A model generated the notes under the pieces. It saw only the letters and a list, made by a program, of their open reading frames with translations, was not told the origin of the DNA and made no database searches. Positions 35,414-38,622 of a DNA stretch of 64,000 nucleotides are shown here, one piece after another. The position numbers and the translations under genes were made by a program. Each line of letters starts with the position of its first letter. Within the stretch, counting starts at the first letter, position 1. The stretch comes from Aquibacillus kalidii (GTDB taxonomy: Bacteria > Bacillota > Bacilli > Bacillales > Amphibacillaceae). The DNA lies in NCBI RefSeq assembly GCF_014280935.1, contig NZ_JACLZI010000027.1, forward strand, positions 29,593 to 93,592, in the 5' to 3' direction.

Positions 35414-35713
35414 TTAACTAACAGGTTTTATCGGTGTTTCCTCTTCTATTTCGATTTCTCCAGCAGAATTAAGTTTATATTTCAGCTTGGTTGCTTCTCC
35501 ACCACGTAAGTGCCTAATCGCCTTGTGATGGTCCAAAATTGTTTTGACTTCATTTGCTAATTCAGGGTTGATTTCTGGTAACCTCTCAGTTAAATCCTTA
35601 TGAACAGTACTTTTTGACACACCAAATTCCTTTGCGATGACTCGTACGGTTTTTCTTGATTCCACGATATACTTTCCTATCCTGATCGTTCTATCTTTGA
35701 TGTAATCGTGCAC
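35414..35713 (-). CDS. spoIIID: Sporulation transcription regulator SpoIIID
   Basis: A 99-residue DNA-binding protein of the mother-cell cascade. The helix-turn-helix reads RVIAKEFGVSKSTVHKDLTERL, and a basic segment further on (KAIRHLRGGEATKLKY) provides the second DNA contact. I take GTG 35713 as start (giving MHDYIKDRTIRIG) since AGGGAGGC is seven bases upstream; the ATG ten codons earlier lies upstream of this site. The C-terminal tail (EIEIEEETPIKPVS) is a little longer than in B. subtilis. In the family it acts after sigma-E. Confidence 0.95.
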   Translation of the reverse strand: MHDYIKDRTIRIGKYIVESRKTVRVIAKEFGVSKSTVHKDLTERLPEINPELANEVKTILDHHKAIRHLRGGEATKLKYKLNSAGEIEIEEETPIKPVS

Positions 35714-35743
35714 ACCACTCGCCTCCCTAAGTTGTATGTCCAA

Positions 35744-36080: not shown

Positions 36081-36263
36081 TTATCCTACATCACCATAAT
36101 CAGGATCATGTTGGTAGGTAGTAATATCTCCTTTTTCATAAATCGGCTCTTGAATTAGGATAGAATCCACCTCATCACCTTGACTGGCTTGAATATCACG
36201 AGAAGTGTAACTAGATAAAGTAATTAAGAACAACATAACTAGTATTAGCAACCGCATTTTCAT
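36081..36263 (-). CDS. Candidate signalling pro-peptide (AimP-like) of the AimR-like receptor
   Basis: A 60-residue protein: a signal-peptide-like N-terminus (MKMRLLILVMLFLITLSS), then a hydrophilic region ending HDPDYGDVG. Small size, export signal and position 33 bases after the receptor gene match AimP/Phr/PapR precursors, whose mature signal is the last 5-10 residues. ATG 36263 is selected because GGGAGG sits eight bases upstream; an upstream in-frame TTG would place that binding site inside the coding region. The mature peptide is probably within the last eight residues, but this cannot be fixed from sequence alone. Confidence 0.65.
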   Translation of the reverse strand: MKMRLLILVMLFLITLSSYTSRDIQASQGDEVDSILIQEPIYEKGDITTYQHDPDYGDVG

Positions 36264-36296
36264 GGCTTTGTCCTCCCTTAAATTTAACTTTTTCAA

Positions 36297-37334
36297 CTAG
36301 TACGCTTTCCTTTTTATTTTTTGGAGTGGAAGTCTTGCAAAAAAATGGTCACTCCGTTTTTCTATAAATTCATTATAAGAACTAAACAAGAACTGTTCAT
36401 TTCCTGTTGCTAGTCCCATGTAATATTTGTGGAAAGGTGTATCTTGGTTTACTCTTTCCAAAATCCTTTGTGCTTCTTTTAAATTACCTCTTGCTATTTC
36501 AATATGTGCTTGCTCACTGAGGTCCTTTGTTTTCAATCCTTCCACTTCCCCAAAGTGTGCACATATAAATGGATAATTCCGATTTTTAATAACCGAGATC
36601 AACTGACTTTTGTCAAATAGTTCAGCCGATTTCAACGCTTCATCAAGGTGGTAAACACTTGAATGATAATCTTCATAAATGTAGCTTAAGGCTAAATTAA
36701 TATGAAGTTGTACTTTTCGCTCTACATTAAATGTTTGATTTATCGCTTGATAGGCATGCTTCCTAGCCAAAATGAGTTCGTTACGCTTCCAATAGTAGAT
36801 GAACAACAGTGTATTTAAGCGGACACGAAAGAGGGAGGCAAGCAATGGGTTTTCCACTTCCATGATCAAATCATTAATTTCATCTAAATAATACCCTAAA
36901 CTATCATATTTATATCCAGAATAGTCTAATGATATTTTTAGAAAAATAAGTAGACATTTCAACTCCGGTAAGCTTGTCTTTATTTCTTGTGCATGATGTA
37001 AAATGGTTTGGGCAGGTCGATTGTAGTTTCTTCTTGCTACCATTAACTCATAAACAGCACCCCATTTACGATTGATAGGGTTTTCACTTTGCTTATTTTT
37101 AATGATGAGAAAATCTAGCTCTGTATAAAATCCATTTAGATAGAGGTATTCCATTCCGATCCTCATATCAATGGCGGATTCCGTTTGTAAACAAAATTGT
37201 TTAGCAAGATCTGCTGCAGCTTTTTCATCATTGTCTATGCTTACCATCGTTATAAACTGATTGAGATTAAGCTGTGGATTATAGTTTTGATATTCCTTTA
37301 AAATACTAGACTTAGTTGAATCAAATCCCGTCAA
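36297..37334 (-). CDS. AimR-like (arbitrium-type) TPR peptide receptor lacking the DNA-binding domain
   Basis: A 345-residue all-helical protein. The C-terminal region reads GNLKEAQRILERV, then FHKYYMGLATGN, then FARLPLQKIKR. It follows the C-terminus of phage SPbeta AimR as I remember it (GN..KEA..IL.R, YY..GL, F...LPL..I). The N-terminus aligns only after about 40 residues of phage AimR, so the part that carries its helix-turn-helix is missing. TTG 37334 has an ideal AAAGGAGGGG site, and an in-frame TAG six codons upstream rules out a longer protein. It is followed by a small exported-peptide gene. No phage genes are nearby; it lies between spoIIQ and spoIIID. Family assignment is by eye. 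Confidence 0.65.
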   Translation of the reverse strand: MTGFDSTKSSILKEYQNYNPQLNLNQFITMVSIDNDEKAAADLAKQFCLQTESAIDMRIGMEYLYLNGFYTELDFLIIKNKQSENPINRKWGAVYELMVARRNYNRPAQTILHHAQEIKTSLPELKCLLIFLKISLDYSGYKYDSLGYYLDEINDLIMEVENPLLASLFRVRLNTLLFIYYWKRNELILARKHAYQAINQTFNVERKVQLHINLALSYIYEDYHSSVYHLDEALKSAELFDKSQLISVIKNRNYPFICAHFGEVEGLKTKDLSEQAHIEIARGNLKEAQRILERVNQDTPFHKYYMGLATGNEQFLFSSYNEFIEKRSDHFFARLPLQKIKRKAY

Positions 37335-37606
37335 AGCTTCCCCTCCTTTCCTATCATTTAGTTAAATATTAATATAATTAATATTATTTCACATCTAATT
37401 TAATATTCAACCCAAATACACCTATTATTGCTCGACATTTACTTCAAGGCTTCGACAGCTTTGCCTTTTTGATGACTATTCTCATTAGCCTATTTTAGAA
37501 GAGAATGTAGTTAATTGACAAAACAGATACTAACTCTTCCATTCGTTGATTGATTAGTGGTAACCTTACTGTTAAAATTCTCAATAGGATGATTGACGTA
37601 GCAAGC
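37335..37606. other. Leader of the AimR-like gene
   Basis: About 270 gene-free bases. It holds a perfect 21-bp AT palindrome (37365-37385) close to the start codon and, near 37427-37462, two CGACA elements (CTCGACA, TTCGACA) resembling Spo0A half-boxes. No other gene was seen. Confidence 0.4.
37365..37385. promoter_or_regulatory. Perfect AT palindrome upstream of the AimR-like gene
   Basis: AATATTAAT and ATTAATATT flank a central ATA, 31 bases before the TTG start. It could be an operator, or part of an AT-rich core promoter. Confidence 0.45.
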
Positions 37607-37659: not shown

Positions 37660-38622
37660 TTAAGCATTTGCCATTGCTGCAGAAGATTCTGTTTGGTTAG
37701 TCGTGTTGTCCTCTTCTGGTTGTTCTTTGTCAGTACTGTCATCTTCTTCTGCATCGTCCTTATCAGTACTCGTGCCTGATGTTTGGTCTTCCTTCATGCT
37801 GTCTTTTTGCTTTGCTTCTTTCTCAGTTGACTTCTCTTCTGTTGATTTTTCTTCAGTTGCATTACTTTCAGTTGAAGATTTTTCATCTTCTTGCTTTGCT
37901 TTTTCATCTGCACTTTCTTGTTTCGGAGCTTTTACATCGTTTAATGGTTGGTTAAAGTAGCTTTCTGGATTTACTGGCTCTCCAGCTTTACGTAATTCAA
38001 AGTGTACATGTGTTCCGCTTGCTTGACCATAAATATTACGGCCAGCTGTACCAATTGTATCACCTTGTTTTACTTTTGCACCTTGGTCTACCATTACTTC
38101 ACCTAAACTAGCATAATACGTTTCTAAGTCATTTTCATGTTGTAATTTTACTACATTACCCAGAATCGGGTCTTCTTTCACTTCTGTTACTGTACCGCTT
38201 AGTGAAGCCATGACATCAAATGCCTTATCATCTGCTGATGCAATATCTAATCCGTTGCTTTGATAGTATTTATTGTCATATAGAACAAGTGCTTTTTCTT
38301 GGTCTGCACTATCTGCATCGTAGTCAAAGAATTTAGTTACGATTTCTGTTTGCAAATCTTCTGCTACTGGCATTTTAATTACTTCTTGTTGATTTACAAC
38401 CTCAGCAGCATCCTGTTCGAAATCCTTCATGCTTTGACCAGATAGATCAAGATCCTGTTCTGTTTCATCACTAGCCTGTGGTACCTGATTATCCAGATTT
38501 TGATACCATAATACACCTGTTAACAACAACGCAGCCATTGTTAAGTAAACTGCTGGGAAAAACCATCTCTTACCGAAGACACGTCTCCAACCATTTTTTG
38601 AAACGTTCTTATTTTCCTCCAT
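37660..38622 (-). CDS. spoIIQ: SpoIIQ forespore M23-like channel protein with long acidic tail
   Basis: A 320-residue bitopic membrane protein: cytoplasmic N-terminus, one helix (about 23-42), extracellular LytM-like domain. The second zinc motif GTHVHFEL is intact. The first His motif is degenerate (SNGLDIA, Ser where LytM enzymes have His), as in B. subtilis SpoIIQ, so it is a scaffold and not a peptidase. It pairs with SpoIIIAH across the septum to build the engulfment channel. The last 90 residues are a low-complexity Glu/Lys/Ser/Thr tail. GAGGTGA precedes ATG 38622. A TTTGTCGAAAA box lies about 80 bases upstream. Confidence 0.93.
   Translation of the reverse strand: MEENKNVSKNGWRRVFGKRWFFPAVYLTMAALLLTGVLWYQNLDNQVPQASDETEQDLDLSGQSMKDFEQDAAEVVNQQEVIKMPVAEDLQTEIVTKFFDYDADSADQEKALVLYDNKYYQSNGLDIASADDKAFDVMASLSGTVTEVKEDPILGNVVKLQHENDLETYYASLGEVMVDQGAKVKQGDTIGTAGRNIYGQASGTHVHFELRKAGEPVNPESYFNQPLNDVKAPKQESADEKAKQEDEKSSTESNATEEKSTEEKSTEKEAKQKDSMKEDQTSGTSTDKDDAEEDDSTDKEQPEEDNTTNQTESSAAMANA

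Follow-up and report, generated by a model that had tools for sequence, protein, structure and literature searches.

The window analysed here is a stretch of 64,000 nucleotides of Aquibacillus kalidii (contig NZ_JACLZI010000027.1), and its subject is a receptor gene of the AimR family followed by a small peptide gene, both on the minus strand between the sporulation genes spoIIQ and spoIIID. The receptor gene (36297..37334) starts with TTG behind an AGGAGG ribosome site and encodes a tetratricopeptide repeat (TPR) protein of 345 amino acids without the recognition helix of a helix-turn-helix (HTH). The pheromone precursor gene (36081..36263) begins 33 bases past the receptor stop with ATG behind GGGAGGA and encodes 60 amino acids whose N-terminus is hydrophobic and whose C-terminus reads DPDYGDVG; this pair, with its 60-residue gene 33 bases downstream, was part of the original prediction and both open reading frames were found. 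The mature pheromone is predicted to be DPDYGDVG, encoded by the last eight codons (36084..36107, minus strand) and carrying the DPxxG core common to the family, while an alternative TTG frame from 36296 would give a 71-residue precursor. The sequences themselves show that the receptor-peptide pair keeps its place between spoIIQ and spoIIID and is inherited vertically, that the recognition helix is absent, and that a conserved Spo0A-box core precedes an extended -10 element.

The receptor compared with phage AimR and Rap

The kinship to AimR proposed in the original prediction is borne out by NF038310 (178.2 bits, cut-off 70), PF22871 (248.3 bits, cut-off 26.7), phrog_1728 and structure comparison, and by the two curated cut-offs the receptor belongs to the AimR sequence family. 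When it was searched with phmmer against the PDB, phage AimRs ranked first (9f36, E 1.8e-12). The locus resembles the phage AimR-AimP systems of SPbeta and phi3T in the curated AimR models passed, in the AimR fold, and in having a small precursor gene directly downstream on the same strand, at a distance of 13 bases in SPbeta, 30 in phi3T and 33 in the window. It differs from them in lacking the HTH recognition helix, in sitting in a core sporulation locus, in its predicted pheromone, DPDYGDVG rather than SAIRGA/GMPRGA, and in the replacement of many peptide-contact residues. Among the equivalents of the SPbeta peptide-site residues, E300, D360, F276, F362 and L199 are retained and L363 is F in the window. 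The window system is AimR by descent and fold, and not arbitrium by the defining features of the latter.

The absence of the DNA-recognition helix is seen in both the structure and the alignment. The receptor frame is closed by an in-frame stop, with only nine more codons open 5' of the start, and it leaves at most 14 residues before the family model against 22 in an HTH-bearing paralogue, in agreement with the earlier claim that no HTH is present. The protein is 41 amino acids shorter than SPbeta AimR (386 amino acids), which is close to the shortening of about 40 residues first proposed, but not all of it lies at the N-terminus as stated there: window residue 19 pairs structurally with SPbeta residue 41, so that about 22 residues are gone at that end and the rest elsewhere.

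The suggestion that the receptor acts like a Rap protein is favoured by the loss of the HTH and disfavoured by the absence of the Rap N-terminal bundle, which is concluded from the lack of a RapH_N match (PF18801) in the window receptor at E 1 and from the alignment of the best Rap chains to the window structural model only from residue 50-54 on. RapH_N, a single model that does not catch all Raps, occurs in 12 of 159 genomes of the window's taxonomic family; 10 of the 12 belong to genus g36, which has AimR too. Raps of the RapH_N kind are therefore rare in the family, leaving room for AimR in the Rap role.

Distribution and inheritance of the receptor and its peptide gene

The original prediction missed that the receptor locus is, by the sequences compared, a vertically inherited trait of the whole family and not an oddity of one genome. 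The receptor has a match at E 1e-10 in 125 of 159 genomes and 39 of 46 genera of the family. We examined 113 of the 125 genomes, leaving out G070, G073, G081 and G128-G136, and obtained 130 places (L001, L021-L149), of which 110, in 110 genomes, are linked to spoIIQ/spoIIID (both flanks seen in 103, one flank in 7); all counts across loci and genomes ignore kinship, no phylogenetic correction having been applied. The remaining places lie downstream of speE or speB (12) or elsewhere (8), and the examined copies in G012, G036 and G119 are not spoIIQ-linked. All 18 named related loci, from Aquibacillus, Gracilibacillus, Paraliobacillus, Natronobacillus, Terrihalobacillus, Ornithinibacillus and Oceanobacillus, also sit between spoIIQ and spoIIID; these loci (L003-L020) largely repeat genomes of the main set and were hence kept out of the 110. 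In an order-wide sample PF22871 was found in 80 of 397 genomes, and 40 stretches from 34 of the 80 were followed up. The spoIIQ-spoIIID site was seen there in two loci of family f36 (L167, L189), out of six f36 genomes sampled, and the speE-speB site occurs in f36 too.

Where all three genes are present (95 loci), AimR distances track those of SpoIIQ (Mantel r 0.833, 0 of 999) and SpoIIID (Mantel r 0.735, 0 of 999). Half of the AimR splits and more recur in the SpoIIQ tree (50/92; 40/52 for those with support of at least 0.9; mean with shuffled labels 0.16), and the nearest neighbour is the same for AimR and SpoIIQ in 51 of 95 cases. A 99-row AimR tree, built by a quick method and with only two phage AimRs in it, contains a branch of support 100 with 74 rows on one side (spoIIQ-linked, speB-linked and similar chromosomal types) and 25 on the other, which include both phage AimRs, L169 and mostly longer proteins, although a few of the 25 are also short (L157, L165). 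One group of support 99 holds 32 spoIIQ-linked rows of the window's family and 6 of the 8 copies found elsewhere; the two spoIIQ-linked rows of f36 fall outside it. SpoIIID is present in 151 of the 159 genomes, and all 8 genomes without it (three genera) are also without AimR.

The flanking genes in the window are spoIIQ upstream (37660..38622, minus strand; NF053738, 312 bits, cut-off 250) and spoIIID downstream (35414..35743, minus strand; TIGR02844, 148.8 bits; PF12116). Among ten neighbours compared with NCBIfam, the matches include SpoIID, MurA, the beta and gamma subunits of ATP synthase, MreB/Mbl, FabZ, SpoIIID and two flagellar hook-basal body proteins, and one protein has no match. 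Eight neighbours compared with PHROGs gave no structural, lysis or integration family; they have no match, or match families of unknown function or a partition family (Mbl). The earlier description of spoIIQ and spoIIID flanks without phage genes thus holds for these ten and eight neighbours. By its core neighbourhood, conserved synteny and vertical tree, the window locus does not belong to a phage or to any other mobile element. A phage origin of the window copy was also sought by searching 50,697 phage records with the receptor (tblastn), which gave no match at 1e-5; only the AimR of another genome (L174) led to the 23 phage records that have AimR.

Peptide genes were searched in a stretch of about 500-560 bases past the receptor stop. 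Under a strict rule (downstream frame of 18-130 amino acids with DPxxG within the last 14 residues), 74 of the 110 spoIIQ-linked loci have one, compared with 1/110 on the reverse strand, 0/110 upstream and 0.14% in shuffles; the same rule gave 0/12 for speB-linked loci, 11 of which had 300 bases or more available for the search, and 3/8 for the others. A relaxed rule, devised after the strict-rule misses had been inspected, raised the spoIIQ-linked count to 82 of 110. The commonest cores are DPDYGDIG (11) and DPDYGEIG (4), followed by DPDFGDVG, DPGYGDIG, DPEYGELD and DPEHGEIF (3 each). Tandem precursors with 2-14 DPxxG units make up 13 of the 82 (including L041, L060, L084, L085, L099 and L105); in that of L099 the unit DPEHGEIF or a near variant occurs 14 times, and that of L105 has two alternating kinds of unit.

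The pheromone gene lacks a signal sequence in 16 of 16 spoIIQ-linked loci of genus group g14, Gracilibacillus (L030, L031, L033, L035-L039, L042-L044, L046, L047, L049, L058, L059). Their frames, taken from stop to stop and all closed by a stop, have 16-52 amino acids and a top 10-residue hydropathy of at most 1.07, compared with a median of 2.94 for the other 66 precursors, of which L064 alone falls below 1.5, its start probably being set too far upstream. The eight pheromone codons of the 16 loci vary mostly synonymously, which is characteristic of a translated and selected peptide: D1, P2, D3, D6 and G8 are invariant, G5 is changed once, Y4 is F in five and I7 is V in three. These genes resemble the leaderless communication peptides of Rgg/RopB (PMC10518010; here and below, papers are cited by PMC number for the parts of them that were available, and statements about them refer to those parts), from which the family differs by its AimR-type receptor.

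Several other loci are of interest in their own right. The genome of the window has a second AimR on contig C39 (L140, 5473-6531), which together with 11 loci forms a second conserved chromosomal class directly 3' of spermidine synthase and agmatinase genes (speE/speB, named by eye); as none of these 12 loci has a DPxxG peptide gene, the class may listen to the spoIIQ-linked pheromone. A third AimR of the genome (L169, 2749-3795, contig C38) has an HTH-like N-terminus, a downstream precursor ending DPDPPVG and a Phage_integrase gene (PF00589) about 1.9 kb away; it contrasts with the window copy in being mobile and arbitrium-like. Two aimR copies in L126 (G083), identical in score and some 3 kb from each other, may reflect a recent duplication or an assembly effect. 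Aquibacillus salsiterrae (L020) has a spoIIQ-linked receptor broken into two frames and a peptide gene that is still open, ending DPAYEDVG. In one AimR-less genome (L205, 3887-4093) the spoIIQ-spoIIID gap retains a small open frame whose leader resembles a signal sequence; it may be a peptide gene that survived the loss of its receptor. The two f36 loci L167 and L189 have two precursor-like genes 3' of aimR, one with DPVEPP-type repeats and the second ending DPDIGGMG or DPDTGGMG.

Spo0A-type boxes and the predicted promoter

The core of the Spo0A box is TGTCGAA (PMC3485338). A perfect core lies before the window receptor gene at 37451..37457 and a second box, TGTCGAG with one mismatch, 20 bases nearer the gene at 37431..37437; an extended -10 (TG-AATAAT, 37383..37388; family consensus TATGnTATAAT) is present together with a possible -35, TTGAAT (37405-37410), all on the minus strand. 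Judged by its motifs, the receptor gene has the box core of the Spo0A regulon at its predicted promoter. The form TGNCGAA occurs 28 times in the window against 21 expected, a number reached by 6 of 100 shuffles; a single box is weak evidence, and the case for Spo0A therefore rests on conservation across the family, where TGNCGAA is kept.

In the spoIIQ-aimR gap TGNCGAA was found on either strand in 102 of 110 loci, on the gene's strand in all except L056, compared with a mean of 13.2 and a maximum of 20 loci in dinucleotide shuffles; these 102 loci support the link to sporulation that had been proposed earlier. Between aimR and spoIIID it occurs in 12 of 106 loci, fewer than the 20.3 expected. 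Within 350 bases before the gene, the core occurs on the same strand for aimR in 102/110 loci and for spoIIID in 3/106; elsewhere it was found for 3/12 speB-linked and 5/8 other-site aimR genes. A sample of 20 stretches from AimR-less genomes comprised 17 short gaps, one 4-kb gap and two stretches without spoIIQ (L200, L213): no same-strand box is present in the 17 short spoIIQ-spoIIID gaps (272-904 bases), and the 4-kb gap (L199) holds other open frames and two boxes.

The position of the box is conserved as well. TGNCGA[AG] is present in 104 of 110 loci, and in 78 of the 104 its start lies 38, 39 or 49 bases before the extended -10 TATGnTATAAT (shuffled mean 13.6, maximum 21), registers 38/39 and 49 being about one helical turn apart; for the second box of the window the distance from its start to the -10 is 49 bases, which is also the most frequent register (31/104). 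A -10 score of at least 6 is reached in 72/104 (shuffled mean 11.6, maximum 18). In 26/104 another TGNCGA stands 19-22 bases further upstream (shuffled mean 0.2). As controls in the same genome, two genes that are targets of Spo0A were inspected: about 160 bases before spoIIGA there is a TGTCGAA on the strand of the gene (L192), and spoIIE has only TGACGAA, on the opposite strand about 300 bases upstream (L193). The extended box was tried as a genome-wide regulon mark and dropped, since TGTCGAACGA occurs 4 times in G094 against 7 for the reversed control. The four sites lie before aimR, near a presumed yqeG, and inside two open frames, presumed to be those of a sigma factor and ruvB (all three named by eye).

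Proposed role and competing explanations

We lean, with modest confidence, towards reading the window pair as a host-owned quorum-sensing switch, predicted to be induced by Spo0A~P, that tunes sporulation by protein contact. Spo0A~P would raise expression of receptor and peptide; the precursor would be exported, cut to the mature peptide and taken up again via an oligopeptide permease. Bound in the concave groove of the TPR face, the peptide would change the protein partner bound by the receptor. This partner would most likely be a component of the phosphorelay or a protein of early sporulation, which the free receptor would restrain and accumulating peptide would release, so that commitment to sporulation would be tied to neighbouring cells.

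A number of observations weigh against this reading. Weaker same-strand box counts within 350 bases are also seen before spoIIQ (19/96) and mbl (13/72), the box is absent from both spoIIQ-linked aimR genes of f36 (0/2; L167, L189), and the window box in the promoter register is the one with the mismatch (TGTCGAG). The extension TGNCGAACGA, in 83 of 110 loci, lies outside the described Spo0A core, so that a regulator other than Spo0A is possible, and the extended form marks no promoter set in one genome (G094). An HTH is not excluded by the open frame alone in 29/110 loci. On the peptide side, no peptide gene was recognised for 28 of 110 spoIIQ-linked receptors, and the SPbeta contacts N202, N206, R228, T236, N239 and N329, as well as M92, Y159, V198, F232 and Q299, are replaced in the window, which would fit a different peptide whose binding is itself predicted. 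Once shared ancestry is accounted for, peptide and receptor co-vary only weakly (partial Mantel r 0.09, 33 of 999), and co-evolution was dropped as an argument. Finally, 26 genomes have SpoIIID but no AimR, so the receptor is not required for sporulation as such, and the 8 genomes without SpoIIID come from only 3 genera.

Some of these points also bear on other explanations. The receptors without a recognised peptide gene, together with the kinship to phage AimR in sequence and fold, could suggest a domesticated or decayed prophage arbitrium receptor, now functionless or an "eavesdropper" on phages. PMC9765709 places 87% of AimR matches in mobile elements and detects a propeptide for just 11% of the rest, which belong to neither prophages, plasmids nor phage-plasmids and which it reads as eavesdroppers. 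We nevertheless find such a relic very unlikely, given the identical site in 110 of 113 genomes, the tree congruent with SpoIIQ, the position of both phage AimRs across the branch of support 100, the conserved promoter box and the peptide gene of its own in 74-82 of 110 loci; the tandem peptide copies and the mostly synonymous change in 16 loci point to selection. The published eavesdropper reading of chromosomal AimRs does not fit this family.

Control of transcription, by the TPR face or through a DNA-binding partner, is another role the receptor might have kept, but with the base-reading helix absent it appears quite unlikely, even though the TPR domain of SPbeta AimR contacts the DNA backbone (PMC6458997, PMC6536502) and the Pfam family is named "transcriptional regulator-like". 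There is a small but real chance that the pair is a Spo0A-controlled quorum sensor aimed outside sporulation, at matrix, protease, competence or stress, and that the site is only a stable parking place. Spo0A governs many other processes (PMC3485338) and the 26 genomes mentioned above have SpoIIID and lack the receptor; the linkage to spoIIQ/spoIIID in two taxonomic families and the absence of the receptor from every SpoIIID-less genome argue the other way.

Chromosomal AimR genes are already in print (PMC9765709, PMC12700828). PMC12700828 groups AimR with Paenibacillaceae receptors and reports chromosomal Alkalihalobacillus systems, and a DPG motif is reported to be widespread in the peptides of AimR and subfamily 08 (PMC12700828, PMC9765709). 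Subfamily 21 (Alkalihalobacillus) and AloR/subfamily 08 (Paenibacillaceae) are like the window receptor in being chromosomal and AimR-like; a fixed sporulation locus, a Spo0A box, HTH loss or a leaderless AimR pheromone are not described for them in the parts available. PMC10075063 lists RRNPP clusters, and the four genus names looked for were not found in its main text as available. Searches combining AimR with spoIIQ/spoIIID or with the halophilic genera gave no paper on the locus among the matches listed.

A broader proposal is put forward tentatively, as possible rather than probable: that an HTH-less AimR with a DPxxGDxG pheromone, controlled by Spo0A, is the family's chief means of gating sporulation by cell density and fills the role that belongs to Rap-Phr in Bacillus; that AimR is at home in the host, with phage arbitrium as its mobile DNA-binding cousin; and that the leaderless pheromone of Gracilibacillus has stopped being a social signal and acts inside the producing cell as a timer private to it. 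Many proteins of the family carry the NCBI label "lysis-lysogeny pheromone receptor", while the whole family keeps AimR as a gene of its own in a sporulation locus, behind a Spo0A-type promoter and in most cases along with a separate pheromone for it. If the family does own the receptor, the origin of arbitrium would become directly testable, as would the question of a stand-in for Rap-Phr outside Bacillus, and the leader-bearing, multi-copy and leaderless forms of one pheromone would offer a natural contrast.
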